A stretch of DNA of 64,000 nucleotides from contig NZ_JANQJQ010000011.1 of the NCBI RefSeq assembly GCF_028281565.1, positions 62,001 to 126,000 of the forward strand. The letters run 5' to 3'. The number at the start of each line of letters is the position of its first letter. The stretch's first letter is position 1. This DNA comes from Seonamhaeicola sp. (GTDB lineage: Bacteria > Bacteroidota > Bacteroidia > Flavobacteriales > Flavobacteriaceae). The translations under genes were made by a program, and so were the position numbers. Shown one piece after another: positions 7,534 through 25,805 of the stretch. The notes under the pieces were generated by a model. The model had not been told where the DNA came from. It did no database searches and saw only the letters and a list, made by a program, of their open reading frames with translations.

Positions 7534-7684
7534 GTTTTACTACTACTTATTTGGTTAGCTCAACTATGTTGCAAAAATAGGGTAATTTTCTTCTGTATAG
7601 ATGAAATTCTTAAATGAAAAAAATCACGTACTTTTGTGTTAAAATTGTGTTAACAGAAATTGGGTAACGCCATAAAAACGATTA

Positions 7685-8461: not shown

Positions 8462-9136
8462 ATGAGCGATTATCTTTTTCCCTTTTTAGCTGTAGTTCTT
8501 GGCGTTGTAATTGCAAGTTTTACAAAAAACAGTAAATCCTGGAACACCAAACTCCTGCTCTCATTTAGCGGAGCTTTCCTATTGGCCCTGACCCTGTTTG
8601 AGTTATTACCGGAGGTGTATCATCATTTAGATGCCAAACTTACCGGATTATGCATTATGTCCGGTATCATGCTACAAATCATATTGGAATTGTTTTCCAA
8701 AGGAGCGGAACACGGGCATGTACACATTCATAAAAACAACAATTCGTTTCCGTGGTTACTCTTTATAAGTCTGTGTATACACAGCTTTTTAGAAGGGTTT
8801 TCCATTCATGAACATAATGATATGGTATATGGTGTATTGGTGCATAAATTGCCTATTGCCATTATGATTAGTATGTTCCTGTTCATGTCTAAATATAACA
8901 AATTTCAGATTGCAAGCTTCTTAATTATTTTTGCCTGTATGACACCTTTAGGGACCTTGATTTCACAAACCTGGGAAGCCGTGGAAAGCACAGTACATCT
9001 TATTAATGCCATAGTTATTGGAATCTTTTTTCATATTTCTACTACCATACTATTTGAAAGTAGTGATGGACATAAATTCAATATGTCAAAATTTATAGCC
9101 ATTATTTTGGGGGTTGGGATTGCGTATTTAATTTAA
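8462..9136 (+). CDS. ZIP family metal transporter
   Basis: A 224-residue membrane protein with about eight hydrophobic segments. The ZIP metal-site motifs are present: SLCIHSFLEGFSIHEH (HSxxEG type) and VLVHKLPIAIMIS (HKxP type), plus a His-rich cytoplasmic loop EHGHVHIHKNN between segments 3 and 4. ZIP proteins move Zn2+ or related divalent ions into the cytoplasm. It is 1 kb from the zur-like gene, but no good Zur-type site lies directly before it; a degenerate one at 7561-7571 precedes the upstream methyltransferase gene. Confidence 0.88.
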   Translation: MSDYLFPFLAVVLGVVIASFTKNSKSWNTKLLLSFSGAFLLALTLFELLPEVYHHLDAKLTGLCIMSGIMLQIILELFSKGAEHGHVHIHKNNNSFPWLLFISLCIHSFLEGFSIHEHNDMVYGVLVHKLPIAIMISMFLFMSKYNKFQIASFLIIFACMTPLGTLISQTWEAVESTVHLINAIVIGIFFHISTTILFESSDGHKFNMSKFIAIILGVGIAYLI

Positions 9137-10286: not shown

Positions 10287-10318
10287 CAAATTTATTACAA
10301 CTATGTTGCAATAACAAA
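10287..10318 (-). promoter_or_regulatory. Putative zur promoter
   Basis: Read on the minus strand: TTTG (10318-10315), a 20-nt spacer, then TAAATTTG (10294-10287), close to the flavobacterial consensus TTG-N19-TAnnTTTG. The -7 box ends 4 nt before the zur ATG, so the message would have almost no leader. Box A fills the spacer. Confidence 0.55.
10292..10314. promoter_or_regulatory. Zur-type operator, box A
   Basis: A 23-bp inverted repeat: half sites TTATTACAAC and GTTGCAATAA around TAT, with one mismatched pair. It lies between the promoter elements of the zur gene and contains the -33 TTG of the divergent merC promoter. The core CAAC-N3-GTTG is shared with boxes B, C and D. Confidence 0.72.
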
Positions 10319-10335
10319 TCATATACTTATATTTG
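10306..10335 (+). promoter_or_regulatory. Putative promoter of the merC-folE-ABC-TonB operon
   Basis: TTG (10306-10308), exactly 19 nt, then TATATTTG (10328-10335), a full match to TTG-N19-TAnnTTTG. The -33 element lies in box A and the last bases of the -7 element lie in box B, so a bound repressor would cover both. Confidence 0.68.
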
Positions 10336-10348
10336 CAACTCAGTTGCA
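10334..10348. promoter_or_regulatory. Zur-type operator, box B
   Basis: A perfect 15-bp inverted repeat, TGCAACT and AGTTGCA around C. Its centre is 38 bp from that of box A. It covers the end of the merC promoter -7 element and the likely transcription start, 16 bp before the merC ATG. Confidence 0.74.
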
Positions 10349-10363
10349 TTAACAAACTCATCA

Positions 10364-10762
10364 ATGAAATTATTGTTGCAAAAATCAGATACTTTAGGAG
10401 CATTTTCAAGTGCATTATGCTTGGTACACTGTCTTGTTACTCCAATACTTTTTATTGCCCAGGCTTCATCAGTTTGCTGTAGTGCTTCTGTACCTACATG
10501 GTGGAAATCTATTGATTACCTGTTCTTGATTATTTCCTTTTTTGCGGTATATCGCTCCACACAGACCACATCGAAAGACTTTATGAAACCGGCTTTATGG
10601 ATTTGCTGGATAATCTTGTTTTTTGCCATAATAAATGAGCATTTACAAGTCATTCATTTACCTGAAATATTTACCTATGTCCCAGCTTTAGGCTTAGTTG
10701 CTCTTCACCTATACAATTTAAAGTATTGCCAATGTAATAAAGGGCCATGTTGTACCAATTAA
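10364..10762 (+). CDS. MerC-domain small membrane protein
   Basis: A 132-residue inner-membrane protein from the ATG at 10364. An upstream in-frame start at 10259 would run through the operators and is rejected. Four hydrophobic segments are visible. Segment 1 carries the MerC-like motif ALCLVHCLVTP, followed by a Cys pair (SVCCSA), and the tail has CQCNKGPCC. MerC proteins pass soft metals across membranes. In this Zur-flanked position a zinc-related role is more likely than mercury resistance, because no other mer gene is present. First gene of a seven-gene operon; folE starts 9 bp downstream. Confidence 0.78.
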   Translation: MKLLLQKSDTLGAFSSALCLVHCLVTPILFIAQASSVCCSASVPTWWKSIDYLFLIISFFAVYRSTQTTSKDFMKPALWICWIILFFAIINEHLQVIHLPEIFTYVPALGLVALHLYNLKYCQCNKGPCCTN

Positions 10763-10771
10763 TTAAAAAAA

Positions 10772-11425
10772 ATGGAAAAAGAAAAAATTGATTTTATAGG
10801 TGACAACCATATATCAACCAATATTGCCACCCCTTTACTGGAAAATGCCTTTGAAAAATCTGATGATGAAAAAATAGCTAACATTCAGCACTATTTTCAA
10901 AAGATCATGGAAGAATTGGGCTTAGATATTACTGATGATAGTTTATCAGGAACTCCGTACCGGGTAGCCAAAATGTATGTGAAAGAGCTTTTCTATGGAT
11001 TAAACCCAAAGAATAAACCCAGGCTTTCAACTTTTGATAACAAATATGGCTACAAGAAAATGTTGATAGAGCAAAATATAACCATAGACTCTGCTTGTGA
11101 GCATCATTTTTTACCAATAACGGGTTATGCTCATGTAGCTTATATCCCGGAACACAAAGTAGTTGGTCTTTCTAAAATAAATAGGTTGGTAGATTATTAT
11201 GCGCACCGCCCTCAAGTTCAGGAGAGGCTATGTATACAAATCCTGAATGATTTACAGGAAGCTTTAGAAACCGAAAGTGTCATTGTTATGATTACAGCCA
11301 AACACCTTTGTGTGTCTTCCAGAGGTATAAAAGATAAAAATAGTTTCACTACCACAATAGAATTTGGAGGTTGCTTTGAAAACAAAATATACCGAGATGA
11401 ATTTTTAAATGTAATTAATAAGTAA
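10772..11425 (+). CDS. folE: GTP cyclohydrolase I (type I, FolE)
   Basis: A 217-residue enzyme that converts GTP to 7,8-dihydroneopterin triphosphate, the first step of folate/pterin synthesis. Family landmarks are GTPYRVAKMY, IDSACEHHFLPITGYAHVAY, VVGLSKINRLVDYYAHRPQ and KHLCVSSRG. The three zinc ligands of the E. coli enzyme are kept (C and second H of CEHH, C of HLCV). So this is a zinc-type FolE and not the zinc-flexible FolE2 usually found in Zur regulons. Its place in a zinc-starvation operon suggests a backup copy, perhaps with different metal use. That is inference. Confidence 0.93.
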   Translation: MEKEKIDFIGDNHISTNIATPLLENAFEKSDDEKIANIQHYFQKIMEELGLDITDDSLSGTPYRVAKMYVKELFYGLNPKNKPRLSTFDNKYGYKKMLIEQNITIDSACEHHFLPITGYAHVAYIPEHKVVGLSKINRLVDYYAHRPQVQERLCIQILNDLQEALETESVIVMITAKHLCVSSRGIKDKNSFTTTIEFGGCFENKIYRDEFLNVINK

Positions 11426-11435
11426 AATAAACATT

Positions 11436-12125
11436 ATGCTAAAAGCTAATAAGCTAAGTATGCAATATGATGATACATTGGCACTTAAGGATTTAAGTTT
11501 CACAGTAGCACCTGGCGAAATTTTTTGTCTATTAGGACAAAACGGAGCAGGTAAAACTACTACTATTAATATTTTTTTGGGATTAATAGAACCCACCTCC
11601 GGAGAAGCTTTAATAGATGGTGTTATTGCTAAGAAAAAATCAGTAAGAAACACCTTAGCCTATATCCCTGAAGTTGTTCAGTTGTATGGTAATTTATCGG
11701 GCTTGGAAAACCTGGACTATTTTAGCCGATTGGCGGGTTTTATTTATACCAAAGAAGGACTTAAAAGCTTATTAAAAAAAGTCAACTTACAAGAGGAAGC
11801 TTTCAATAAAAGACTGGTTACTTATTCTAAAGGTATGCGCCAAAAAGTAGGTATAGCCATAGCCATAGCTAAAAAGGCGTCCTACATTTTAATGGATGAA
11901 CCAACCTCTGGTTTGGATCCTAAAGCATCCGTAGAATTCGCTGAAATATGTAAAGAATTATCAGCTAATGGCGTTGGTATTCTAATGACAACCCATGACA
12001 TTTTTAATGCTGTGAACATAGGATCTAAAATAGGAATCATGAAAGAAGGCTTCCTGGTCCATACTACTGATACTTCAAAAATATCTGCCGAAGAATTACA
12101 AGAATTATACATAAAAACTATTTAA
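11436..12125 (+). CDS. ABC transporter ATP-binding protein (ABC-2/NosF-like)
   Basis: A 229-residue single ATPase domain: Walker A GQNGAGKTTT at about 34-43, signature YSKGMRQKVG, Walker B SYILMDEPTSGLDP and a switch histidine in MTTHDIF. The sequence type matches ATPases paired with ABC-2 permeases such as NosF/CcmA-like exporters. Its permeases are most likely the two DUF3526-type proteins downstream, separated from it by the TonB receptor gene. Gaps of 10 bp before and 23 bp after indicate one transcript. Confidence 0.9.
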   Translation: MLKANKLSMQYDDTLALKDLSFTVAPGEIFCLLGQNGAGKTTTINIFLGLIEPTSGEALIDGVIAKKKSVRNTLAYIPEVVQLYGNLSGLENLDYFSRLAGFIYTKEGLKSLLKKVNLQEEAFNKRLVTYSKGMRQKVGIAIAIAKKASYILMDEPTSGLDPKASVEFAEICKELSANGVGILMTTHDIFNAVNIGSKIGIMKEGFLVHTTDTSKISAEELQELYIKTI

Positions 12126-12148
12126 TAAACACAAACAAATAATTAAAA

Positions 12149-14647
12149 ATGAACTTAAGAAATGTAGCGCTTGTTATTGCTTTCTTCGCAATACAATTAG
12201 GCTTTTCACAGTCTAAAGTATCCGGAAGAGTTTTAGGTGAAAACAGCACGCCGATACCTGGAGCAAATATCATCGTATCAGATAATGCGCAGACTAAAAA
12301 AGGAACAACTTCAGATTTTGATGGAAATTTTAGTATAGAAATAAAGGCTGGTGGCATTTATAATTTACGCATCACTTATATTGGTTATGAAACCTACGAA
12401 ACCTCTATTGAGCTATCTGAAAATCAAGACAAATCATTAGGAAATATTACTTTAAAAGCTTCTTTTGAATCCTTACAATCTGTAGAGATTGTTGGACGAA
12501 AAAGAAAAGATTACAACAGTGATTACTCGTTTTCAGCTACAAAAATAGCTATCAAAAATAAAGAGTTACCACAAGCAGTTGCAACAGTTACAAAGGAGCT
12601 TCTAGCTGATAGACAAGCGTTTCAACTCACAGATGCGGTTAAAACAGTAAGTAATGTAGCACCTACTGGTTTATATAACCACTATAATATTCGTGGTATC
12701 ACGCAAGCTGATGACGGGCAGGTTGTTAATGGCATGCGTACGCGTCAATACTATTTTCTACAACCAATTACGTCACACCTGGAGCGTGTAGAAGTAATTA
12801 AAGGGCCTTCTTCTGTAACTTTTTCTAGTGCAGACCCCGGTGGTACGGTAAACATAGTTACTAAAAAACCATTGACAGAAAAGCGCAGCGAAATTTCAAT
12901 AGCGTCTGGAAGCTTTGGTACGTTAAGAACTACAGCTGATTTTACTGGGCCTTTAAACGAATCCAAAACATTACTGTATCGTTTTAATGTCGCTTATCAA
13001 GATGCAGACTCATTTAGAGATGTTGTAAAAAATAATGCTATTTTATTTTCGCCATCTTTAAGTTATATCCCTAATAGTAGTACTTCGCTTAATGTAGAAA
13101 TGATTTATAACAATGCTGAAGGTAATTTAGATAGAGGTCAGCCTATTTTTGGTGCTATTAATGGTGCATATGACATCAATAGTACACCTATTACAATGAA
13201 TGTTGGCGCATCAAACGACCACTACAAAACTAAAGAGCTTATGTTTATGGCTAACTTTAATAAAAAGTTTGCAGAAAACTTTGGTTTTAATGCACAGTAC
13301 ATGAAACAAACTTGGGATGAAGATTTAGCTGAACATAGAGTTGATGGTACAGCGGTTGATATTGATGGAAATGTGATTCCTACCTTGGCGAGAATGAGAT
13401 ATGATAAAAGACAACAATTTTGGGAAACCGATAACTTTAGTACGTATTTTAATTACGATATCAAAAAAGATAACATTACCAATAAAATTTTGGTGGGTTA
13501 TGATGCTACGCGTTGGGAAAGAAAAATTGGAGCTGGATTCCTTCGTGCCAGACGATATTTAACAGTTAATGGAGGTCAGTCTAATTATGACTCATCTAAT
13601 CCGGGTAATTTTCAACAAATGGTTGTGGACGGTGTCACTATGCCTGTACCCGCTGTTCCTCATTTTAATTTAGAAAACCCTTTTAATGGCGCCAGAAATA
13701 CAAATGCTTATAACCTTGCTGAATTAACAATTCCAGCAAACTTAACAACCTCTAATGGTATCTATATTCAAAATCAATTTAAGATTGGTAAATTTTCAGC
13801 TCTAATAAACTTAAGGTATGAATGGTTTACAGACATTTTTGATTATGAAGGTGATGAACAAGAATTTAAAACCAATGCGCTTGTACCTAGATTTGGTTTG
13901 ACCTATGAAGTTACAGACAATATTAGTGCTTATGCCACCTATTTAGAAGGTTTTCAACCACATACCAATACGGTGTCACTATCTCCAACAGCTGAAGGCT
14001 TCTTTTGGGGTGCATCACCAGGAAGGTTCGATCCTTTAGAAAGTAGCTTGAAAGAGGTAGGTGCCAAAGGTGAGTTCCTAAATGGTAAAATATTTGCAAA
14101 CATTGCTTTTTTTGATATCATTCAAAAGAACATTTTACTGGGAGACACCTATGATTTAGATAACTTAACAACAAGAGGTGAGCAAAGAAGTAGAGGTTTT
14201 GAAATGGATATTTCTGGTTACGTAACACCAAATTTTCAACTTATAGCATCTTACGGTTTTACAGACGCTGAAATCGTAGAAGATGCCATAGAAGAATTTA
14301 TTGGAGAACGCATTGGAGGCGCTCCAAAACATAATGGAAACTTTTGGGGGCGTTATGATTTTATGAATAAAACCTTAAGAGGCATTGGAATTGGTTTCGG
14401 TGCTCAATATGTAGACGAAAGATATACTTGGTACAACCCTACTTACGCTAGTGATAGAGTACTTTTACCTGATTACACCATATTTGATGCTGCCATATAT
14501 TACAAGCCAAATAATACAGGTATCCAATTAACACTTAAAATAAACAACTTATTTGATGACACTTATTGGTTAGGTGGTCTTAACCCTTCCAGGTTAGGTC
14601 CAGGAGCACCAAGAAATATATTACTTAACGCTACTTATAAATTTTAG
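12149..14647 (+). CDS. TonB-dependent siderophore-type outer-membrane receptor
   Basis: An 832-residue receptor. Signal peptide about 1-20 (ending GFSQ), carboxypeptidase-like regulatory domain about 22-110 (VSGRVLGENSTPIPGANI), plug about 130-240 (RQAFQLTDAVKTVSNVAP, VEVIKGPSSVTFSSADPGG), then a 22-strand type barrel ending NATYKF. The barrel resembles FhuA/FecA-like ferric-siderophore receptors (KINNLFDDTYW near the end). Because the operon starts at Zur-type boxes, the cargo is more likely a zinc complex or a zincophore than iron. Whether substrate goes on through the linked ABC-2 transporter is unclear, since ABC-2 systems usually export. Confidence 0.9.
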   Translation: MNLRNVALVIAFFAIQLGFSQSKVSGRVLGENSTPIPGANIIVSDNAQTKKGTTSDFDGNFSIEIKAGGIYNLRITYIGYETYETSIELSENQDKSLGNITLKASFESLQSVEIVGRKRKDYNSDYSFSATKIAIKNKELPQAVATVTKELLADRQAFQLTDAVKTVSNVAPTGLYNHYNIRGITQADDGQVVNGMRTRQYYFLQPITSHLERVEVIKGPSSVTFSSADPGGTVNIVTKKPLTEKRSEISIASGSFGTLRTTADFTGPLNESKTLLYRFNVAYQDADSFRDVVKNNAILFSPSLSYIPNSSTSLNVEMIYNNAEGNLDRGQPIFGAINGAYDINSTPITMNVGASNDHYKTKELMFMANFNKKFAENFGFNAQYMKQTWDEDLAEHRVDGTAVDIDGNVIPTLARMRYDKRQQFWETDNFSTYFNYDIKKDNITNKILVGYDATRWERKIGAGFLRARRYLTVNGGQSNYDSSNPGNFQQMVVDGVTMPVPAVPHFNLENPFNGARNTNAYNLAELTIPANLTTSNGIYIQNQFKIGKFSALINLRYEWFTDIFDYEGDEQEFKTNALVPRFGLTYEVTDNISAYATYLEGFQPHTNTVSLSPTAEGFFWGASPGRFDPLESSLKEVGAKGEFLNGKIFANIAFFDIIQKNILLGDTYDLDNLTTRGEQRSRGFEMDISGYVTPNFQLIASYGFTDAEIVEDAIEEFIGERIGGAPKHNGNFWGRYDFMNKTLRGIGIGFGAQYVDERYTWYNPTYASDRVLLPDYTIFDAAIYYKPNNTGIQLTLKINNLFDDTYWLGGLNPSRLGPGAPRNILLNATYKF

Positions 14648-14652
14648 TATTC

Positions 14653-16098
14653 ATGCGAAACGATGTTGTCGTTTTAATAGGGAAGCAGTTTTTCAAAAAG
14701 ACCTTTTATACTAAAGGTCTTTTTGTGCTGTTAACGCTTTTTCTAATGGTTCTAAGCTATGTAACTATCAATGGCTGGAATGCTTACGAAAAACGCCATC
14801 ATATTGCTGAACACCACCAAAATCAATCTAGGGAAAGTTGGGAAAATAACCCCGATAAACATCCACACAGGATGGCCCACTTTGGCACATTTGCTTTCAG
14901 GGAGCAACATCCTTTGAGTATTTTTGACTCCGGAATTGAAACCTACATAGGGAATTCTATTTATTTAGAAGCCCATAAACAAAATACAGCAAACTTTTCA
15001 GAAGCTAGTTTATCAACGGGCTTAGTGCGTTTTGGTGATTTAAACATCGCCCTGTTATTGCAACTCATCCTGCCCTTAGTCATCTTTTTCATTGGCTATG
15101 CTTCCATAACTTCTGAAAAGGAACATGGCATCCTTAAAATAATCTACCTTCAAGGAGCATCGATGCAACAAATACTACTTGGTAAAGCTTTGGGGTTGTT
15201 TTTGGTTTCAACCTTGTTCTTTATTCCTGCCTTAATCGCGTTATGGAGTATTTCATTTATTGAAAGTCACACCTTGAATAGTGGAGTTGTCATGCGTTCC
15301 CTTTTAATAACCGCTAGTTATGTCCTCTTTTTTATAGTCTTATGTTTTGTAACGGTTATTGTTTCGGCTAGAAGCGTTAGTTCAAACAAAGCCTTATTAA
15401 GTCTATTAGGCGGTTGGTTATTATTTTTTATAATCATTCCAAAAACGGCCCAAGTTATTGGTAATTCCGTATACCCTAATTTATCCAAGATTGAATTCAA
15501 AGCAGCTATTGAAGCAGAAGTGGCTAAACAAGGCGATAGCCATGACCCCAACGACCCCCATTTTAACAAGTTACGAGACTCCGTTTTAAAAGCTAATAAT
15601 GTAACAGATGTTAAAGATTTACCCTTTAATTACAGCGGTTTTTTAATGAGTAAAGGCGAAGAACAAACAGCTATAATTTATGGTAATCAGCATAAAAAAT
15701 TAATCAACACCTACAAAAAGCAGAATAGCATTACCAATAGTTTGGTGGTACTGAACCCATATCTGGCTATTAAAAATATATCCATGGGGCTATCTGGAAC
15801 AGATTTTCATACCTACACTAATTTTTTATCACAAACCGAAACTTATAGATATGAGCAATCGCAGTACATGAACGACCTTCAAATGAAATTCATTAGTAAT
15901 AAAGCTAAAGGTAGTGAAGGAAAAATTCATGTTGTAGATAAATCCTATTGGAGATCGGCACCAAAATTCAGCTATGAGTACTTACCGATATCTAAAACCA
16001 TAAATCATCAAATAGTCGCCTTTTTTGCCCTTATCTTTTGGTTACTACTGGCTATAATAACCATGACCAAATTTTCTAATCGATTTAAATTTATTTAG
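14653..16098 (+). CDS. ABC-2 type permease, DUF3526 family (first)
   Basis: A 481-residue membrane protein. TM1 at about 20-40 is followed by a large periplasmic domain (about 45-135) with several His residues (EKRHHIAEHHQNQ, HPHRMAHFG). Five or so clustered C-terminal segments include the ABC-2 coupling segment ITSEKEHGILKIIYLQGAS. It begins 5 bp after the receptor gene and pairs with the next gene as the two halves of an ABC-2 transporter driven by the ATPase at 11436. The His-rich external domain would suit metal sensing or handling; that is inference. Confidence 0.85.
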   Translation: MRNDVVVLIGKQFFKKTFYTKGLFVLLTLFLMVLSYVTINGWNAYEKRHHIAEHHQNQSRESWENNPDKHPHRMAHFGTFAFREQHPLSIFDSGIETYIGNSIYLEAHKQNTANFSEASLSTGLVRFGDLNIALLLQLILPLVIFFIGYASITSEKEHGILKIIYLQGASMQQILLGKALGLFLVSTLFFIPALIALWSISFIESHTLNSGVVMRSLLITASYVLFFIVLCFVTVIVSARSVSSNKALLSLLGGWLLFFIIIPKTAQVIGNSVYPNLSKIEFKAAIEAEVAKQGDSHDPNDPHFNKLRDSVLKANNVTDVKDLPFNYSGFLMSKGEEQTAIIYGNQHKKLINTYKKQNSITNSLVVLNPYLAIKNISMGLSGTDFHTYTNFLSQTETYRYEQSQYMNDLQMKFISNKAKGSEGKIHVVDKSYWRSAPKFSYEYLPISKTINHQIVAFFALIFWLLLAIITMTKFSNRFKFI

Positions 16099-16100
16099 TT

Positions 16101-17447
16101 GTGTATACCTTATTAATCAAGCATTTTTTTAGGTCTAAAACAGTATGGTTAGCATTTGGAATACTCATGGTGTTAGGTATGTTGAGTATTAGCACCGGGA
16201 AACAGTTTCTGTCACAACAACAAACATCCATTAACAAGACCATTGAGCAGCAACAAAAACATTTAGAAAGACAACGTAGTTTTCATAAAGAAGATATTGG
16301 TTTATTATCCTACTATCTAAAATTTTCATTTTTGAATCCCGTACAACCCTTAGCAGGTATTTCTATTGGGCAAAGCGATTTAAACTCCCATATACAAAAT
16401 GTAAGTATTGTGGCTCTGGAAGGTCAAAAGCACAATACAGATTTGGTCAACCCCATGCGACTGCAGGTTGGGAATTTAGATGTTAGTTTTCTCATTATTT
16501 TTCTATTTCCATTAGTGATTATTGCCCTAAACTTTAACCTACTATCCGAAGAAAAAGAAAAAGGCACCTGGAAAATGATAACCATTCAAGCAAAATCATC
16601 TTTTAGTTATTTATTGGCCAAACTATCCGTTCGATTCGTTTTTGTTTGTCTTGTTTTAGGCTTACTATTACTAGTGGCTAAAGTGGTTTTAGGCATTCCG
16701 TTTACAAGTGATTTTTCGGCAATTATAATTATGAGTTACCTCTATACACTATTTTGGTTTGCGCTCTGTTTTTTCGTGATACTTTTACGAAAATCCTCAA
16801 ATACCAATGCCATAGTATTATTAGCTAGTTGGTTATTATTAGTTGTTTTTCTTCCGGTACTCGTAAGTAATTATATTACAAACAAATACCCTATTGATGA
16901 AGCATTTACTATGGTCATCAAACAAAGAGACGCCTACCATCAAAAGTGGGATACTGACAAAAAAGAAACTATGGAAAGGTTTTATGAACACTATCCACAT
17001 TTACGCAAATATGGGTTTAAAACCGAAGGATTTTCATGGTTATGGTATTTTGCCATGCAACAATTAGGTGATGACGACTCAAAAGAAGAACGAGCAGCTA
17101 TGTACAACAAGGTAAAACAAAGAGAGGAACTGAGCAGAAAAATAGCGCAATTCTTTCCGCCTTTACAATTGCAATTATCCATGAATGATATAGCCAAGAC
17201 AAGCTTAACCAATCACATAGATTTTTTACATGCTACCAATACATTTCATGAAAAAATACGTTTGGATTTATATCCCAAAATTTTTGAAGAGCATCATCCA
17301 GATACAGTAAATTTTGAAAAGCATAAGCCAGAGTTCTTTAAACCTGAAAGTAATTTTAGTTTGTTCAAAAACATGCTTTCAATACTTATCATTAGTTTTA
17401 TTCTAATAGGCTTTGGAATTTTCAGAAACTTGAAATATTTTAGTTGA
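16101..17447 (+). CDS. ABC-2 type permease, DUF3526 family (second, GTG start)
   Basis: A 448-residue permease starting at a GTG 2 bp after the previous stop. It has the same architecture as its neighbour: TM1 (VWLAFGILMVLGML), an external domain, the coupling segment LSEEKEKGTWKMITIQAKSS, and clustered TMs with a final one near 425-445. Sequence similarity to the upstream gene is low but the layout is identical, so the two probably form a heterodimer. The next gene starts 1 bp after its stop. Confidence 0.84.
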   Translation: MYTLLIKHFFRSKTVWLAFGILMVLGMLSISTGKQFLSQQQTSINKTIEQQQKHLERQRSFHKEDIGLLSYYLKFSFLNPVQPLAGISIGQSDLNSHIQNVSIVALEGQKHNTDLVNPMRLQVGNLDVSFLIIFLFPLVIIALNFNLLSEEKEKGTWKMITIQAKSSFSYLLAKLSVRFVFVCLVLGLLLLVAKVVLGIPFTSDFSAIIIMSYLYTLFWFALCFFVILLRKSSNTNAIVLLASWLLLVVFLPVLVSNYITNKYPIDEAFTMVIKQRDAYHQKWDTDKKETMERFYEHYPHLRKYGFKTEGFSWLWYFAMQQLGDDDSKEERAAMYNKVKQREELSRKIAQFFPPLQLQLSMNDIAKTSLTNHIDFLHATNTFHEKIRLDLYPKIFEEHHPDTVNFEKHKPEFFKPESNFSLFKNMLSILIISFILIGFGIFRNLKYFS

Positions 17448-17448
17448 T

Positions 17449-18513
17449 ATGAAACTAAAATCTGTTGTTTTACTATTTTTTTTCGCCACAATTAAACTGG
17501 CATATGCTCAGTCGGCTTTCACGTTTTTTGGCACGGATATAAAACCAGGAACCAAACATCACTTTAAAATCCCTATATCAGATGACAAAGATTCTACCTT
17601 TATCCCCATCACCGTATTTCGTGGTGAAGAAGAAGGCCCTGTTTTAGGTATAACCGCAGGCGTTCATGGTTATGAATACCCTCCTATTCTTGCGGGGCAA
17701 CGATTAATTAAAAGCATTGACCCGAAGACTTTAAAAGGTACGGTCATTTTGGTTCAAATAGCTAATGTAGCTAGCTTTTCTGGTAGGTCACCATTTATAA
17801 ATCCATTAGACGATAAAAATTTAAATAGAACATTCCCGGGAAATAGCGAAGGCACCGTAACCGAAAAAATTGCAAACTTTATTAGCGAGAATGTTATCTC
17901 TAAATCAGACTACTTTTTAGATATGCATGCTGGTGATGCTTCCGAAGATTTAACATCGTATTCTGCCTTTTATAAGAATTCTACTATGCCCGAAGCTTCC
18001 CAAAAAGCAAAGGAAATGGCAGAAGCCTTGCTTTTTGACTATATCATTGTTTTCAAAACAGATGGAAAGGATTACGTAAAAAAAGATAAACCTAGTTTAT
18101 ACTGTTCTGCCGAAGCGTTCAAAAGAGGTATCCCTGCGGTAGATATTGAATGTGGTGGACTGGGTAAATCTGAAAAAGAAAAAGTTCTACAAGTTGAAAA
18201 TGGCGTTCTTAACATGATGAATAAACTCGATATGACAGTAACAAATTCTGAAGTTATTAAGAAAAGTACCTATCAGTTTGTCAGTAACAGAGTATCTCAA
18301 GAAAGTAATCATGATGGTATTTTTTACGCTTCAAAACAATCAGGTGATTACGTTAAACAAGGTATGACATTAGGAGTAATCACAGACTATTTTGGAAATA
18401 CCCTGGAAACTTTGTATGCCAAAGCTAACGGGGTTGTTTTATATATTGTTGGCACTCCACCTATAAATACCGGTGAAACTCTTGTTACCATTGGTGATAT
18501 TGCAGAAAAGTGA
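17449..18513 (+). CDS. Periplasmic M14-like succinylglutamate desuccinylase/aspartoacylase family protein
   Basis: A 354-residue protein with a signal peptide (1-20, ending AYAQS). The zinc carboxypeptidase-type site is complete: H73 and E76 in GVHGYEYP, H160 in LDMHAGD, catalytic E234 in VDIECGG, plus the substrate motif NRTFPG. A C-terminal beta-barrel-like region (about 265-350) contains SGDYVKQGMTLGVIT. Such enzymes cut N-acyl amino acids or C-terminal amide bonds. As the last gene of an operon with an outer-membrane receptor, it could free metal by cutting an imported amino-acid-based ligand. This is inference. Confidence 0.83.
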   Translation: MKLKSVVLLFFFATIKLAYAQSAFTFFGTDIKPGTKHHFKIPISDDKDSTFIPITVFRGEEEGPVLGITAGVHGYEYPPILAGQRLIKSIDPKTLKGTVILVQIANVASFSGRSPFINPLDDKNLNRTFPGNSEGTVTEKIANFISENVISKSDYFLDMHAGDASEDLTSYSAFYKNSTMPEASQKAKEMAEALLFDYIIVFKTDGKDYVKKDKPSLYCSAEAFKRGIPAVDIECGGLGKSEKEKVLQVENGVLNMMNKLDMTVTNSEVIKKSTYQFVSNRVSQESNHDGIFYASKQSGDYVKQGMTLGVITDYFGNTLETLYAKANGVVLYIVGTPPINTGETLVTIGDIAEK

Positions 18514-18647
18514 TGGTCTTAAGTACATTTTATTCCACGCTCATCGCAAATAAAATCTTCCAAAGCATAAATCGTATTTTTTTTTGGTTGAAATCATTGC
18601 TCTCCATTTCAATGATTCCAGACTCGTGATTCTGTAAATCGAAAAAA

Positions 18648-18670
18648 TAAACGCAACTTGGTTGCGTTTA
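18648..18670. promoter_or_regulatory. Zur-type operator, box C
   Basis: A perfect 23-bp inverted repeat: TAAACGCAAC and GTTGCGTTTA around TTG. It is the best of the four sites and lies 70 bp before the carbonic-anhydrase ATG. The right half contains the -33 TTG of that promoter. The rest of the 227-bp spacer holds only a weak hairpin (AATCATTG 18592-18599 with CAATGATT 18610-18617). Confidence 0.78.
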
Positions 18671-18691
18671 GAAAACAATATCTTATATTTA
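18662..18691 (+). promoter_or_regulatory. Putative promoter of the LCIB-type carbonic anhydrase gene
   Basis: TTG (18662-18664), exactly 19 nt, then TATATTTA (18684-18691), one base off TAnnTTTG. The -33 element is inside box C. The spacing is the same as in the merC promoter. Confidence 0.62.
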
Positions 18692-18740
18692 TACAGGACA
18701 TAATTGAATCTAATAATACATTAATCAAAAAATTTATATT

Positions 18741-19460
18741 ATGCTACAAAGAAAATTTGACGAGATTGTTAAAAAAGAATACCCAAATGCCAAGGATGCT
18801 AAGGATACATCCATTCACTATTTAGGAAAAATGCAGTCAGAGCACAACATCGATATTTCTAAAGTGCTTATGGCCACATCCTTATGCTCTGATGATATCA
18901 ACATACCATCTACAACATTCTTCAATGTATTATTTGGCCCATTCATTATGGGAGGACTTGGAGGTATTCCTTTTGTTGGGCAAACTGGTATGACAGCATT
19001 TGCACACCATATTCCAGATGAAGGAAGTGCTTTTATATTCTACGGACCTCATATAGGAATTACTTTAGAAGGGGAACTTGGTAAGATGTACCGACCAAGA
19101 ATGGAAGAAAAAGGAAATTCTTGCGGCGCATTAATGTTGGCATTAAGCCGATTAGGAAATGATAGTTACTCACCTGTCTTGAATGATGACGATTATCAAC
19201 AAATGAAATTAGAGGAAAGCTTACTACCTTATAGAGAAGACATTTTGAATAGCGATAATCCTCAAAAAGCCATTACTGATGCGACCTATAAAATTATCGA
19301 CAAGAAAATTCATGAACACATTAAAACCTGTAAAGACGAATTTCCTGTGGACACTGTAACACTCTTAGGAGGGGTAATTATAAATACAGGCCACGGCATA
19401 GATGATTACTTTGATGCCAGAAACTTTGAAGTCATTGACCTAAAAGCTTATGAAAATTAG
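18741..19460 (+). CDS. LCIB_C_CA-type (beta/theta-like) carbonic anhydrase
   Basis: A 239-residue cytoplasmic protein (no signal peptide) of the family named after the algal limiting-CO2-inducible protein LCIB, whose members are zinc carbonic anhydrases. The signature is intact: TSLCSDDIN (C49, D51), GPFIMGGLGGIPFVGQTG, FAHHIPDEG (H89 or H90), YGPHIGI and NSCGALM (C128), giving the Cys-His-Cys metal set. It would interconvert CO2 and bicarbonate. It sits alone behind box C with a downstream gene 57 bp away. It may be the carbonic anhydrase used when zinc is short, perhaps with another metal. Metal choice cannot be read from sequence. Confidence 0.83.
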   Translation: MLQRKFDEIVKKEYPNAKDAKDTSIHYLGKMQSEHNIDISKVLMATSLCSDDINIPSTTFFNVLFGPFIMGGLGGIPFVGQTGMTAFAHHIPDEGSAFIFYGPHIGITLEGELGKMYRPRMEEKGNSCGALMLALSRLGNDSYSPVLNDDDYQQMKLEESLLPYREDILNSDNPQKAITDATYKIIDKKIHEHIKTCKDEFPVDTVTLLGGVIINTGHGIDDYFDARNFEVIDLKAYEN

Positions 19461-19473
19461 CATTTCCAATAAG

Positions 19474-19501
19474 GATGGTGTGGGTTCATTTCCGCACCAT
19501 C
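19474..19501 (+). other. Intercistronic hairpin
   Basis: Arms GATGGTGTGG (19474-19483) and CCGCACCATC (19492-19501), with one wobble/mismatch and an 8-nt loop, lie between the carbonic anhydrase stop and the next ATG at 19518. There is no T-tract, so RNA stabilising or attenuation is more likely than termination. Confidence 0.45.
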
Positions 19502-19517
19502 TCAATACTATTACATA

Positions 19518-20015
19518 ATGCGAAAATGCCTTTTCCTTTTATGTCCTACCGATTGCTTGGAATCTGTTATTAACAATAGGTTTAAGTACGAGAATTATTT
19601 TTACACATCACTGGGCAATTCTTTTATCTATGATGATGTAACAATAGAATATATAAAGCGAATGGTTAAAACTCATAATATCAGAGACATCTATTTTGTT
19701 CTTTCTACTGATAATCAAATTATTGTGGATGCCTTAGGAAATCAGGATTTTTCCGGTATTGGGAAGCTAAATTATTTTTATAACAACATTACAAAGCACA
19801 AGAAACAGTCTGAAATATTATCGCATAAAGGTAACCCCAAATTTTCGGTACTTTCTCATTATTTGAATATCAAGATAAAAGAATTACAACTGGAACTAAA
19901 CAATTTACTAGAGCATCCCGTTAAAATACAAGGTAAAATTTATGACAGACAAAACGATCTATTTAGAGCTATCTATTCCAATTTAATTTGCTTGGAAAAG
20001 TATCATTTAAATTAA
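19518..20015 (+). CDS. Unrecognised protein resembling a beta-carbonic anhydrase without zinc ligands
   Basis: A 165-residue cytoplasmic protein, 57 bp after the LCIB-type gene. The N-terminal half follows the order of beta-carbonic anhydrase elements: a strand ending CPTDCLE where CxDSR is expected, FYTSLGNS where the RNAGN turn is expected, a TIEYIKRMVKTHNIRDIYFVL helix-strand like the one before the zinc histidine, then STDNQIIVDAL where HxxCGxxxAL should be. The His and second Cys are absent. I do not know this family by name. A regulatory subunit or diverged paralogue of a carbonic anhydrase is possible. Fold assignment is inference from pattern only. Confidence 0.6.
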   Translation: MRKCLFLLCPTDCLESVINNRFKYENYFYTSLGNSFIYDDVTIEYIKRMVKTHNIRDIYFVLSTDNQIIVDALGNQDFSGIGKLNYFYNNITKHKKQSEILSHKGNPKFSVLSHYLNIKIKELQLELNNLLEHPVKIQGKIYDRQNDLFRAIYSNLICLEKYHLN

Positions 20016-20052
20016 TTGTATAAGTAATAGTTTATAATTCACTAATTATTGG

Positions 20053-20100
20053 AACACCTTCAATTAATTTATGGTTGTTGGTTATTGTATTGGAGGTGTT
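20053..20100. terminator. Possible bidirectional terminator
   Basis: AACACCT (20053-20059) pairs with AGGTGTT (20094-20100), and the adjoining CAAT/ATTG also pair, between two convergent genes. A T-run follows about 15 nt later on the plus strand. Weak loop; moderate to low support. Confidence 0.35.
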
Positions 20101-20136
20101 TCTAAATAGATCGTTTTTTCCAAATAAACACTATTA

Positions 20137-22344
20137 CTAGAACTGTTTCACCAATGAAATCTTCGAAATAAACTGTTGCTCCTGAACAGGAGAAAATGCA
20201 TCATTTAAATTAGAGTCATTAAATACCAGGTAAATAAAGGAAAGTGGCATGAACTCCCAGCTTGTCCGTACATTCCACCGCCCTTGCTTATCAAAACTGT
20301 TATACTGATAAAACGTTGACAATTGAACCCTTGGATTCAGAGCAAACCTCGACCCAACTGAAAAGAGGTTTGTAGACAAATTTTGTTGTGCCTGCCCTAT
20401 ATTTTTTAAATCATTATGTTCATAATCAAAGGTCAGAGCAATATGAGGAATCGGCGCTAACCTTCCCGAAGCTTTATAAGTTTGTCTTGTACCATCATAA
20501 AAATCACCAAAGTTATAGCTTCCGCTAACGGACCACTTTTTAGATCTATCGGTATAGTATCTTAATGTAAAACGTGTATAATAGTACTCATCTTGCTCAA
20601 TTTGCAACCCTAAAGGCGCAAAATTAAAATTAATATTTTGCCATGTTGGGGTCAAAGAACATTCAAAGAAACTATTATCCTTAAACCACACGTAAACGGG
20701 AAAAATGTAGAGATTGGCTTGTTGAAACCTTCCGGGGTTTGTTGCATCGTGATTGTAACTGGCAAATACTCCCGGATCCCAACGCCTTATCCAATTTATT
20801 TTCCTGGGCCTCCATATATAATATCCTCCGGGATTATGACTAATTACGTTAGACTGTCTCACAAAGCCCATGGCGGGATTATATTTGGCATCCGTATAAT
20901 CGGTTGACCAAGCGTAATAAAACTTATTACTTCTTCTACCTACAGAAACTCTTCCTGCGAAACCTGTCTCTCTTGTCCCTTCGTCAATTGACGATGTAAA
21001 GAGGTACTTAATATCCCATTGGCTGGTTGGTCTTATTTGTCCATCTACAGTAAGGGTTGTATTATTATTAGATTCCAAACCTAAGTCCTCAGAAGTATTA
21101 TCCAAACGGTGGGTAACCATAAGTCCTATATTGTTTTCTTTACCATAATTTCGCAGATATCTGGCTACTCCAAAATTTGAAGCAGGGGAATTATCCGTCG
21201 CTCCTTGCCTCACCAAAAGGCCGGCAATTGCTTGTTTTTCTGTACGTTGCGTATATCTGGCCCCTACTTCTATTGGAGCCGTCTCGGCATTAAAGCTACC
21301 TTGTAAACCGATACGCCTACTAAAAAAAGGACGAATTGCTGTTTGGCTTCCTCCCGCCCAAATCCCTGAATTCTCGAGAAAAAACTGGCGTTGTTCAGGG
21401 AAAAAGATGTTAAATCGTTCCAGGTTATTTACAGCACGGTCCACATCAGCTTGAGCAAAATCAGTATTAATTGTTAAATCCAGTACGGAGTTTGGGTTTA
21501 CGGCCCATTTTACATCGCCTCCCACTTTAAATTGATCCATGGAACTACTGGTATCATTATCAATATTATCATACTGATACAATGTATAAGGTTCTATACG
21601 AATGTTGGTTGAAGGTGGTGGCAATTCTATGCCGGTAAGTTTAGCCGCATAGGTCATCCTGTATGGTGTAAATGATTGTGGTATGGCCGGAAAAGTAGAT
21701 ACTTCCACGTCACGTCTGGCATACCTTACCATGGTTATTCCCCATGCTACAGGTTCATCAATTTTAGATTTGTTATATCGTAACGTTTTAAAAGGAATTG
21801 CAAATTCTGCCGTATAACCATCTTTTGTTCTGTGTGTACGGACTTTCCAAAGCGTGTTCCATCCCGTATCAAAACTATTGCCATTAAAATTCTGAAAATC
21901 GCGTTGATTTCCATAGGGTGTTGTTTGAAATGCCTGGGCATACTGTTTTAAGTTTTGCGGGTCTAATGCAACACCAAAAAGGTCATTTTCACCCCAGCTA
22001 AAATCTCTTCTGAGATCCTGAACCCTAATACCTTTTATACCCGCAGAATCTCTACAAAATGCTGCGATATATAGGTTTTTTTCATCAAATAAAAACTTAA
22101 CTTCCGTTTGATGTTTAATGGTTCCGCCCTGACGTGGCTCTACCCGAAAAAAATCTGTAACAACTTCAGCTTTGTTCCAATCTTTTTCATCAATCCTGCC
22201 ATCTACTACAATTTTACCATTAGCTTTGTTGACATGTATTACCGGAGGGGTTTCCGGTGGTGGGAAATTAGAATCGGAATTTTGAGCATGGCCAAATCCG
22301 ATAATTAACAATAAAATAATTAAGGTTTTTGGGATGCCATTCAT
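20137..22344 (-). CDS. DUF5916 outer-membrane protein with CBM9-like domain
   Basis: A 735-residue protein: signal peptide 1-20 (GFGHAQ), CBM9-like/DOMON-type beta-sandwich about 37-240 (IVVDGRIDEKDW, EVKFLFDEKNLYIAAF, YTAEFAIPFKTLRY), then a DUF5916 beta-barrel with many amphipathic strands ending ISLVKQF. The barrel includes NPNSVLDLTINTDFAQADVD and FFPEQRQFFLENS, hallmarks of the family. The substrate is unknown. Its promoter overlaps box D, so it may be controlled with the zinc genes and serve as an outer-membrane port or envelope factor in zinc shortage. Confidence 0.85.
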   Translation of the reverse strand: MNGIPKTLIILLLIIGFGHAQNSDSNFPPPETPPVIHVNKANGKIVVDGRIDEKDWNKAEVVTDFFRVEPRQGGTIKHQTEVKFLFDEKNLYIAAFCRDSAGIKGIRVQDLRRDFSWGENDLFGVALDPQNLKQYAQAFQTTPYGNQRDFQNFNGNSFDTGWNTLWKVRTHRTKDGYTAEFAIPFKTLRYNKSKIDEPVAWGITMVRYARRDVEVSTFPAIPQSFTPYRMTYAAKLTGIELPPPSTNIRIEPYTLYQYDNIDNDTSSSMDQFKVGGDVKWAVNPNSVLDLTINTDFAQADVDRAVNNLERFNIFFPEQRQFFLENSGIWAGGSQTAIRPFFSRRIGLQGSFNAETAPIEVGARYTQRTEKQAIAGLLVRQGATDNSPASNFGVARYLRNYGKENNIGLMVTHRLDNTSEDLGLESNNNTTLTVDGQIRPTSQWDIKYLFTSSIDEGTRETGFAGRVSVGRRSNKFYYAWSTDYTDAKYNPAMGFVRQSNVISHNPGGYYIWRPRKINWIRRWDPGVFASYNHDATNPGRFQQANLYIFPVYVWFKDNSFFECSLTPTWQNINFNFAPLGLQIEQDEYYYTRFTLRYYTDRSKKWSVSGSYNFGDFYDGTRQTYKASGRLAPIPHIALTFDYEHNDLKNIGQAQQNLSTNLFSVGSRFALNPRVQLSTFYQYNSFDKQGRWNVRTSWEFMPLSFIYLVFNDSNLNDAFSPVQEQQFISKISLVKQF

Positions 22345-22367
22345 AAAAAACAGACCTTTAATTCATA

Positions 22368-22397
22368 CAAAAATAATGATTTTGCTTACTAATGCAA
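22368..22397 (-). promoter_or_regulatory. Putative promoter of the DUF5916 gene
   Basis: On the minus strand: TTG (22397-22395), exactly 19 nt, then TATTTTTG (22375-22368), a full consensus match. The -33 element is inside box D. Confidence 0.66.
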
Positions 22398-22410
22398 CTA
22401 AGTTGCGTTA
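22390..22410. promoter_or_regulatory. Zur-type operator, box D
   Basis: A 21-bp inverted repeat: TAATGCAAC and GTTGCGTTA around TAA, one mismatch. It sits in the divergent spacer between the DUF5916 and PhoX genes, 40 bp from the PhoX ATG. It overlaps the DUF5916 promoter. Rightward, TATATTTG at 22409-22416 may be the -7 element for PhoX, but no TTG lies at the right distance. Confidence 0.72.
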
Positions 22411-22450
22411 TATTTGCAAGGTATTACATAACAAATTATCCTTTTAGATT

Positions 22451-24121
22451 ATGCCATACAATAGAAGAGAATTTATCTCCTTTTTAGGGAAAGCCGGTTT
22501 AGGAGCATTGACTATACCTCCTTTCCTTATAAGTTGTGGTAACACGGCCACGCCTACTTCAGACAAAAAACTTTCAGATGAACAGTTAAAAAAATTAAAA
22601 GACCTTGTTTTTGAGGGGTTATCGCCTTCAAACCAGGACGATCTGTTACTGGCCAAAGGGCTGGATTACCAAATGGTGATAAAATGGGGCGATAAAATTA
22701 GTGACAAAGACACCTTTGGATTTAACCCCGATTTCACTTGTTTTATTCCTTTAGATGAACGTAACCCTAAAGATGGCTTGTTATGGGTAAACCATGAATA
22801 TGCCAATCCGTTTTTTGTTGCCGATTTTAATAATCATGCTAATCCACCGGAAAAAAGAACCAAAGAACAAGTGGATAAAGAAATATACAACGTTGGTGGA
22901 AGCATTGTAAGAATTAAAGAAGAGCACGGTGTTTGGAAAGTGGTAAATAACGATCCTCATAATCGTCGCATCACAGGACATACTCCCATTCCGTTAAACT
23001 GGGATGCTCCAATTGAAGGGAAAAGTGAAATCATTGGAACAAATAGTAATTGTTCCGGTGGCATTACCCCATGGAATACATTTTTAACCTGCGAGGAAAA
23101 CTATCAGGATGTTTTTGGTGACACTTTGTATGATGAAAATAATGCTGCAACCAGAACACCAAGTATTTGGGGTTGGGAACAATTTTATGATTACCCTCCG
23201 GAACATTATGGCTGGGTTGTAGAAGTGAACCCTAAAGATGGAAAAGCTCAAAAACACATTGCCTTAGGACGTTTTGCCCATGAATGCTGTACCTTATATG
23301 AATTGGAAGACAAACGTGTTGTTGCCTATTCAGGAGACGATAAAAAAGATGAACATCTGTATAAGTTTATTTCCTCTAAACCGGGCTCTTTAAAGGAAGG
23401 GACCCTTTATGTTGCCGATACCATTAATGGGAAATGGCTTGCCTTAGATTGGGAAAATGAGCCTGTTCTCAAAAACAAATTCAAAGATCAAACCGAAGTT
23501 TTGGTAAGAGCTAGAGAAGCCGCAAAACTTTTGGGAGCAACCCCTTTGAATCGACCAGAAGATATTGAAATAGATCCCATTACCGGGAACATTTTTGTGA
23601 CCCTGACCAACAATAAGCCTAAAGGGGACTATCATGGTTCTATTTTAAAAGTAGAGGAAACCGAGGGCAAATTTGACGCCCTAACTTTTAAAGCTTCTAC
23701 TTATTTGGCTGGCGGGAAAAAAAACGGATTCTCCTGTCCCGATAATTTAGCTTTTGATCTATCAGGTAATCTCTGGATGACTTCAGATATGTCCGGCGAT
23801 GCCATGAACAGAAAAGGCAAACCATACATGCCTTTCAAAAATAACAGTTTGTTCGTTATTCCCAGATATGGAAAAGATGCCGGGAAAGTAATTCGGATGG
23901 CTTCAGCACCTCGAGATGCTGAGCTTACAGGCCCCTGGTTTTCACCTGATGGAAAAACCCTGTTTTTAAGTGTACAACATCCAGGGGAACAAACAACTGA
24001 TAAAAATAACCCAACAAGTAAGTGGCCATTTGACAAGGATGGAATTCCAAAACCTGCCGTGGTTGCCATTACCGGTGACTTGATAGAGAAATTGAATAAC
24101 CTGAATCAGATTGAAGTCTAA
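22451..24121 (+). CDS. PhoX-family (DUF839) exported phosphatase
   Basis: A 556-residue protein with a Tat-type signal (RREF at 5-8) ending in a lipobox Cys at 29 (LISC). PhoX features are in order: NCSGGITPWNTFLTCEEN with C201 and the acidic cluster, RFAHECC, YSGDDKKDEHLYKF, RPEDIEIDPITGNIFV, FSCPDNLAFD and TGPWFSPDGKTLFLSVQHP. PhoX enzymes are phosphomonoesterases that use iron and calcium and do not need zinc, unlike PhoA. It heads a unit of zinc genes and has box D upstream, which suggests a zinc-sparing phosphatase. The phosphatase activity is inferred from family; some DUF839 proteins have other roles. Confidence 0.83.
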   Translation: MPYNRREFISFLGKAGLGALTIPPFLISCGNTATPTSDKKLSDEQLKKLKDLVFEGLSPSNQDDLLLAKGLDYQMVIKWGDKISDKDTFGFNPDFTCFIPLDERNPKDGLLWVNHEYANPFFVADFNNHANPPEKRTKEQVDKEIYNVGGSIVRIKEEHGVWKVVNNDPHNRRITGHTPIPLNWDAPIEGKSEIIGTNSNCSGGITPWNTFLTCEENYQDVFGDTLYDENNAATRTPSIWGWEQFYDYPPEHYGWVVEVNPKDGKAQKHIALGRFAHECCTLYELEDKRVVAYSGDDKKDEHLYKFISSKPGSLKEGTLYVADTINGKWLALDWENEPVLKNKFKDQTEVLVRAREAAKLLGATPLNRPEDIEIDPITGNIFVTLTNNKPKGDYHGSILKVEETEGKFDALTFKASTYLAGGKKNGFSCPDNLAFDLSGNLWMTSDMSGDAMNRKGKPYMPFKNNSLFVIPRYGKDAGKVIRMASAPRDAELTGPWFSPDGKTLFLSVQHPGEQTTDKNNPTSKWPFDKDGIPKPAVVAITGDLIEKLNNLNQIEV

Positions 24122-24157
24122 CTTAAATTATAAAACCTTCTTAGAGATTATTTTAAA

Positions 24158-25363: not shown

Positions 25364-25429
25364 TGGTGATGTTGGTATCCTATGATAGAAACAAAAAAAG
25401 TAATGAAGTAATGAATTAATAATTAAAAA

Positions 25430-25738: not shown

Positions 25739-25805
25739 CCCAAATTAGAAGAAATATAAAACTTCTATTTACCAATGTAATTTATAGATTGATATAAGCT
25801 CTAAA

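Follow-up and report, generated by a model that had tools for sequence, protein, structure and literature searches.

The window analyzed here is a 64,000-nt stretch of the genome of Seonamhaeicola sp. (assembly GCF_028281565.1, contig NZ_JANQJQ010000011.1, positions 62,001-126,000, forward strand). It encodes a Fur-family repressor of 126 amino acids (aa) and contains four palindromes, boxes 1 to 4, in and before its gene neighbourhood. Boxes 1 and 2 lie between the repressor gene and a divergent operon, while boxes 3 and 4 precede two further transcription units on the plus strand. As detailed below, we propose that the palindromes are operators of the repressor, which would act as a Zur-type zinc sensor.

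An original prediction, made from the sequence alone, described four matching palindromes, and this description holds. All four contain CAAC-N3-GTTG, a core present five times in the window against 0.86 copies expected (0 of 100 shuffles reached five), and they take the first four ranks in the window when scanned with a matrix derived from relatives. Box 2 scores 30.2 bits, box 4 27.6, box 1 27.3 and box 3 22.5; the following places score 13.6 and then 8.2 bits. A loose 15-mer search allowing three mismatches is not significant alone, with seven matches versus 3.26 expected and 6 of 100 shuffles reaching seven. One box had been called a perfect 23-mer palindrome. This is box 3 (10-3-10), yet it is the weakest of the four by matrix score. 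The predicted positions of boxes 1 and 3 are exact, whereas the span given for box 2 (10334-10348) is merely the perfect core of a longer site. The boxes do lie beside a Fur/Zur gene and before folE, carbonic anhydrase and COG0523 genes, as stated, except that folE and the COG0523 gene are both second in their operons; the first genes, a MerC-like gene after box 2 and phoX after box 4, had not been named. The place scoring 13.6 bits is the fifth instance of the core, at 7561-7571. Because of this low score, and because its left half is missing at the matching region of the one relative inspected (G059), it is treated as a chance overlap with a TATTTTTG element.

Recurrence of the boxes in this genome and its relatives

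The 23-bp matrix, made symmetric, draws on 34 sites located next to the repressor gene, with one or two from each of 21 relatives and none from the own genome. To be chosen, a site could differ from TGCAACTNAGTTGCA at no more than three positions. As this core had itself been taken from the window, the matrix does not depend on the window's letters but does depend on its motif. A sequence-only profile of the same sites, run against the whole 5.27-Mb genome of the strain, places boxes 2, 4 and 1 on top (E-values 5e-4, 0.0025 and 0.003). No other place falls below E 2 among the 150 of 2904 first-look candidates that were scored; at the sensitivity of the profile, the regulon is therefore confined to one cluster. 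The string GCAACTNNGTTG occurs at six places in this genome, compared with 0 for a reversed control. Three are boxes 2, 3 and 4, two (L001, L007) fall within reading frames, and one is a hairpin followed by T7 (L008) that, read by eye, appears to be a terminator. With up to two mismatches allowed, 13 places were found versus 4 for the reversed control. Apart from boxes 1, 2 and 4, the remaining 10 were rejected, all being inside mechanically called reading frames.

The core follows the repressor gene across the family. Among 149 family genomes, own included, 15 contain the exact 15-mer TGCAACTNAGTTGCA (reversed control, 0) and 22 contain a repressor orthologue of at least 46% identity. The core is found in 13 of these 22 genomes versus 2 of the other 127 (Fisher p ~3e-11, genomes taken as independent). 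Allowing at most one mismatch gives 52 places in the 21 relatives, compared with 5 when the motif is reversed. Matches at this threshold are present in 19 of the 21 relatives and were not found in G010 and G119. In a profile scan of the 22 genomes, the 21 that supplied the profile's sites match by construction; the scan lists several further candidate sites, for instance in G090 C11 and at G086 C18:129535.

A larger sample came from a homologue-alignment scan, from which the best 80 of 469 confirmed stretches (1.43 Mb) were searched at a threshold of 16 bits. The original prediction had named two tests, conservation before the same genes and motif density, and both came out in its favour. The density in the strain's own genome has been given above; these loci contain 168 sites, compared with a mean of 0.45 and a maximum of 3 for 20 permuted matrices. 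As for conservation, the interval from 220 bp before to 10 bp after the called start of the repressor gene holds a site in 72 of the 80 loci and two sites in 58. At L132, L142, L148 and L155, the sites miss this interval by 20 to about 300 bp, and L171, which has no called repressor frame, has a site pair before MerC. L182 starts at a contig end, and the sites of L186 and L194 are only found about 4 kb from the repressor gene. Sites away from the repressor promoter are outside frames of more than 100 aa in 28 of 29 cases; the remaining one is in an overlong start call. Beyond these, eight loci with Fur homologues of lower identity (28-37%, L044-L051) were searched with up to three mismatches; five have a site, and L046, L050 and L051 gave none. 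In a scan of the phylum, the exact core occurs in 11 of 395 genomes, at 13 places versus 4 for the reversed control. Six places are beside a Fur-family gene (own included; two form one pair, in G165), two precede COG0523 genes, three are beside genes without identification, and two score below 16 bits.

The genes under these sites recur as well, the TonB/ABC-2 genes among them. Operons divergent from the repressor gene were counted with a simple gap rule at 79 loci (L171 left out), 12 of which gave none. They include MerC at 60 loci (first gene in 57), FolE at 44, COG0523-like genes at 23, the ABC/FtsX set at 15-16, PhoX at 8 and LCIB at 2. Some of the COG0523-like genes are only 22-35% identical and represent a second type. 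The 145-aa and 165-aa proteins of the window, which have no Pfam or NCBIfam family, are encoded in 15 and 12 of the 79, respectively, and are candidates for new zinc-starvation proteins. Sites away from the repressor promoter precede MerC-FolE (L121, L178), MerC-FolE-PhoX (L174, the G019 record), COG0523 (L124, L130), the ABC/FtsX set (L140, L141) and a second repressor copy with MerC (L185), and box-led operons include LCIB in L169 and L183. In further genomes, one site precedes HMA (L098) and another a COG0523 gene with LCIB third (L094), and in L102 a 38-bp site pair separates LCIB and the 165-aa gene from a divergent 435-aa gene. In L093 (G086), a site precedes a ZrgA-like gene (23.1 bits versus a cut-off of 27.4), followed by dCTP deaminase-like and CysRS genes. 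Members thus shift position across relatives and stay near boxes. Judged by gene content only, the set corresponds to a Zur-class regulon, combining zinc uptake, COG0523 and zinc-enzyme paralogues. There are also boxes before genes without a clear zinc link, namely, in L129, an IPP transferase or a 405-aa gene without family assignment, and elsewhere an oxidoreductase (L101, L162), M1 peptidase/DUF6702 (L180) and TauE (L186).

Position of the boxes relative to promoter elements

The sites often come in pairs with a fixed step. Among neighbouring-site distances below 200 bp, 58 of 72 are exactly 38 bp. A separation of 36-41 bp is seen in 68 pairs, 61 of which fit TTG-N17-21-TAnnTTT[GC], with a spacer of 19 bp in 53 and 20 bp in 6. 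In the fitting pairs, TTG is in the right half of the first site and the second site overlaps TAnnTTT[GC]. On sequence grounds, this geometry fits the promoter of the phylum, which is given as TTTG/TANNTTTG at -33/-7 in the excerpt of PMC6847099. The same excerpt describes a -33 element that is weak in Flavobacterium johnsoniae, a -7 consensus that is phylum-wide, and a distance of 4-5 nt from the -7 element to the start.

In the window (Table 1), box 1 is in the spacer of the zur promoter and its right half carries the -33 TTG of the merC promoter. The latter would have box 1 on its TTG element and box 2 on its -7 element and predicted start. The box 4 promoter has no good -33 element at 19 bp; a TTTG lies 24 bp upstream instead. 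As expected for the Zur class, palindromic candidate operators are found over the promoter elements of both the targets and the repressor's own gene, these elements being assigned by consensus only. A distance of 4 nt separates the end of the zur -7 element from the ATG, and the two are similarly close in several relatives, hence the repressor mRNA is predicted to be leaderless, and probably is.

Box 3 is probably an operator as well, with somewhat less confidence than the others as a set. An explanation we find unlikely, though the best-surviving of those considered, is that it is a terminator-like hairpin and that the regulon consists of boxes 1, 2 and 4. Read on the minus strand, box 3 is indeed a 10-bp stem with a T6 tail, and its core GCAACTTGGTTGC is also present in a hairpin at the C45 locus of the same genome. 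However, the CAAC-N3-GTTG hairpins at C45 were rejected as operators, with scores of 6.4 and -4.2 bits, at least 16 bits below box 3. A TTG-N19-TATATTTA promoter also fits at box 3, and the plus strand of the box, on which both flanking genes lie, has no T run. In addition, LCIB is near strong boxes in L094, L169, L183 and L102, although the box pair of L102 might serve the divergent 435-aa gene.

Table 1. Boxes, putative promoter elements and genes of the window
Feature	Position	Strand	Details
Fur-family repressor, Zur-type, 126 aa	9902-10282	-	Pfam FUR (PF01475), 32 bits, cut-off 23.1
zur -7 element	10287-10294	-	TAAATTTG; 20-bp spacer to TTTG 10315-10318; by consensus
Box 1	10292-10314		TTATTACAACTATGTTGCAATAA; read directly from sequence
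merC operon -7 element	10328-10335	+	TATATTTG; TTG 10306-10308, 19 bp upstream
Box 2	10330-10352		TATTTGCAACTCAGTTGCATTAA; perfect 7-1-7 core 10334-10348
Box-2 operon	10364-18513	+	gaps 1-23 bp; Pfam/NCBIfam; members beside boxes in relatives
MerC-like	10364-10762	+	box-2 operon, first gene
FolE	10772-11425	+	box-2 operon, second gene
ABC ATPase	11436-12125	+	box-2 operon
TonB receptor	12149-14647	+	box-2 operon
DUF3526 permeases	14653-16098, 16101-17447	+	box-2 operon
AstE/AspA-like	17449-18513	+	box-2 operon
Box 3	18648-18670		TAAACGCAACTTGGTTGCGTTTA; perfect 10-3-10 palindrome
Box 3 promoter	18662-18664, 18684-18691	+	TTG, N19, TATATTTA
LCIB/C-type carbonic anhydrase	18741-19460	+	after box 3; PF18599, E 1e-50
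165-aa gene, no assigned family	19518-20015	+	after LCIB gene
Box 4	22389-22411		CTAATGCAACTAAGTTGCGTTAT; read directly from sequence
Box 4 promoter, -7 element	22409-22416	+	TATATTTG; abutted by box 4
Box-4 operon	22451-28109	+	Pfam; members under boxes elsewhere
PhoX	22451-24121	+	box-4 operon, first gene; PF05787, 1e-102
ZigA-type COG0523	24158-25363	+	box-4 operon, second gene
HMA protein	25430-25738	+	box-4 operon
ABC ATPase	25806-26435	+	box-4 operon
FtsX permease	26432-27682	+	box-4 operon
145-aa protein, no assigned family	27672-28109	+	box-4 operon, last gene
MogA-like gene	28247-28780	+	may follow box-4 operon

The repressor, its metal and other explanations

The original claim of a Zur-type regulon is supported by the conservation, the background density and the target genes. 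We consider that the adjacent repressor is a Zur-type zinc sensor of Bacteroidota, that it uses the four palindromes as operators, and that it controls a zinc-starvation regulon, and assign this a probability of about 0.87. Binding by the repressor, zinc as co-repressor and the direction of control are what we infer from sequence. A zinc-loaded dimer would occupy the 23-bp sites (approximately TTWWTGCAACTNAGTTGCAWWAA) over the -33 and/or -7 promoter elements and repress, besides the gene that encodes it, three transcription units. These are merC-folE-TonB/ABC-2, the LCIB carbonic anhydrase unit and phoX-zigA-HMA-ABC, which would provide zinc uptake, zinc allocation and backup enzymes. At low zinc, the repressor would be released.

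Membership of the Fur superfamily is clear. PF01475 scores above its cut-off, the structural model has a pLDDT (predicted local distance difference test) of 83, and all 50 listed Foldseek matches are Fur-family proteins. Two CxxC pairs, C87/C90 and C121/C124, are invariant in 24 of 24 homologues and correspond to a structural zinc site common to other Fur-family proteins. Candidate sensor ligands are H56, C70, C73, H78, H82 and H84. In profile alignments, C70, which is present in 22 of the 24 homologues, takes the place of the Zur sensor cysteine, aligning with ScoZur C79 and EcZur C88, while the invariant H56 aligns with EcZur H77. According to the excerpt of PMC6103462, the C79S and C88S substitutions abolish or nearly abolish Zur function and His77 is a sensor ligand. 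A profile of the 24 homologues matches ScoZur best (3mwm, 1.4e-10), with 7vo0 also among the top matches, followed by FurB (2o03, 1.8e-9), Bacillus cereus Fur (2.4e-9) and EcZur (6.4e-9). Foldseek, run on the predicted model, ranks Zur proteins 1 to 4 (SynZur, ScoZur, FurB) and a Fur fifth. The own genome encodes one other Fur-family protein, without CxxC pairs in the stretch read. About 0.8 kb lies between the repressor gene and the end of a ZIP-family zinc transporter gene (8462-9136), which has no good box of its own.

It is improbable, in our judgement, that the regulon is real and responds to iron, manganese, cobalt or nickel through a repressor of Fur, Mur or Nur type. Such a reading could draw on the single-sequence matches of the repressor, the best of which are Fur, on the resemblance of the TonB receptor in the box-2 operon to siderophore receptors, and on the use of iron and calcium by PhoX, as described in the excerpt of PMC5454538. 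Against it, Zur comes first in the profile and fold searches, though Fur is close, and two repressor residues, C70 and H56, match Zur sensor ligands in the alignments. The targets include a ZigA-type COG0523 protein, FolE and a carbonic anhydrase, with ZrgA-like and CysRS genes added in G086, and the genome has a separate Fur-like gene. The COG0523 protein of the window scores 565.5 bits (E 5e-170) with the NCBIfam ZigA equivalog, whose cut-off is 600; since this is close to the cut-off yet under it, the protein is named ZigA-type only.

Several further points weigh against the zinc-sensor proposal. With the NCBIfam Zur equivalog PRK11639, the repressor reaches 19.5 bits versus a cut-off of 167, so it is called Zur-type by function and not by subfamily; its best NCBIfam match, like its best single-sequence match in the Protein Data Bank (PDB), is Fur. 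C70 is missing in 2 of the 24 homologues (L039, L043). The matrix sites were selected for likeness to the window's core, and 7 of the 80 loci (L125, L130, L136, L162, L170, L174, L179) belong to records that also supplied matrix sites, leaving 73 that are fresh in that sense. The 38-bp step and promoter fit were obtained without a shuffled control, and many of the loci are close kin. Box 3 is missing from the own-genome profile list, for which 150 of 2904 first-look candidates were scored. A box at all PhoX genes was considered and rejected, as the copies in G090 and G057 have none in their 1.5-kb flanks. Likewise, the FolE of the box-2 operon was rejected as a zinc-free substitute. The genome has four FolE paralogues (10772-11425 in the window, and one on each of contigs C17, C42 and C24), and what we take to be the usual zinc ligands are kept in all four, the box-2 copy included.

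That another regulator, encoded elsewhere, binds the boxes is very improbable. G030 and G096 do contain the core without a close repressor orthologue. However, G096 has a Fur homologue of 34% identity, and its two boxes precede a COG0523 gene (with a MogA-like gene further down) and a 263-aa gene without a Pfam family, respectively. The site of G030 is below 16 bits, and a box is at the repressor gene in 72 of the 80 loci. Least credible is the notion that there is no dedicated repressor and that the palindromes reflect conservation of the promoter elements themselves (TTG / TAnnTTTG), since, although TTTGCAAC overlaps a -7 element whose consensus is phylum-wide (excerpt of PMC6847099), the far half-site GTTGCA is outside that consensus and the exact core is concentrated in genomes with the orthologue (13 of 22, versus 2 of 127 without).

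Comparison with known systems and individual genes

A close parallel in gene content is the Zur regulon of Caulobacter crescentus, in which Zur represses the TonB receptor ZnuK and the ABC-2 system ZnuGHI (PMC4176598, in part). As there, a TonB receptor gene stands beside those for an ABC-2 ATPase and two permeases, and the Caulobacter operator is likewise over the -10 element or between -10 and -35. It differs in its operator, of the GTTAT..ATAAC type, and in its promoter type. MerC-like, PhoX, LCIB and folE genes are found here and are not among the Caulobacter Zur genes in the excerpt of that paper. DUF3526 has matches in 1 of 14 control genomes, that of Caulobacter, and the permeases are not equated with ZnuH/I. 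The Seonamhaeicola genome has a second pair of DUF3526 permease genes (contig C11, 122091-123975), where the own-genome scans listed no box.

Two-box Zur promoters are described for Bacillus subtilis and Streptomyces, with one box over -35, one over -10 and repression by zinc-loaded Zur (PMC6103462, in part). By description, those boxes differ in sequence, whereas the step here is 38 bp and fits TTG-N19-TAnnTTTG. For COG0523 GTPase, carbonic anhydrase and CysRS paralogues, predicted Zur sites have been reported from Bacilli, alpha-, beta- and gamma-proteobacteria and cyanobacteria (PMC2770081); the main text of that paper, as far as available, does not contain 'Bacteroid' or 'Flavobact', and the carbonic anhydrase it describes belongs to the gamma class, in contrast to the LCIB/C-type enzyme here. 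SynZur of marine Synechococcus (7ne9), the best Foldseek match of the predicted repressor model, is likewise the Zur of a marine bacterium and has one operator serving divergent genes. Its targets differ, being znu genes and bmtA (PMC9337993, in part).

No described Zur operator or regulon of Bacteroidota is among the literature matches listed, RegPrecise not covered, in line with the original prediction, which knew of no described motif of this form for the Flavobacteriaceae. Papers on Riemerella ZntR (PMC11960050) and the F. johnsoniae ribosome (PMC9976891) mention Zur in general terms only, in the parts available. Among further matches listed, none joins MerC with Zur by title or counts, one plant paper containing both words, and none by title concerns PhoX under Zur. 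We give even odds to a broader proposal. Flavobacteria would have their own branch of Zur, with an undescribed operator tied to their unusual promoter through 38-bp pairs on the -33 and -7 elements, and PhoX, a zinc chaperone and an additional carbonic anhydrase would all be directly induced by zinc shortage.

If true, marine flavobacteria would tie their use of phosphorus, with PhoX as an iron-calcium phosphatase, and of carbon to zinc status; a link between metals and ocean phosphorus acquisition has been discussed (PMC5454538, in part). It would be testable whether these bacteria raise iron-dependent PhoX at low zinc. The motif could be scanned across flavobacterial genomes, and about 12 gene families could be named as zinc-starvation genes, including the MerC-like, 145-aa and 165-aa proteins and the DUF3526 permeases.

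The PhoX of the window aligns with solved PhoX structures (4amf/3zwu, E 2e-54) and keeps the NC..G.TPW, HE, GDD and RPE stretches, which places it in this family; the kept residues presumably include those that bind metal. At E 1e-30, PhoX is present in 4 of the 22 genomes, window included, and the G019 copy is in a box-led operon. In G090, a 37-aa PhoX-like stretch, perhaps a remnant, is beside the 165-aa gene near the repressor (L076, 14661-14771), while the full PhoX is encoded elsewhere. A general replacement of PhoA by PhoX was rejected, as L139 has a PhoA-family gene after the ABC/FtsX set. The MogA-like molybdopterin adenylyltransferase is 84-96% identical between loci and is encoded in 5 of the 79 divergent operons.

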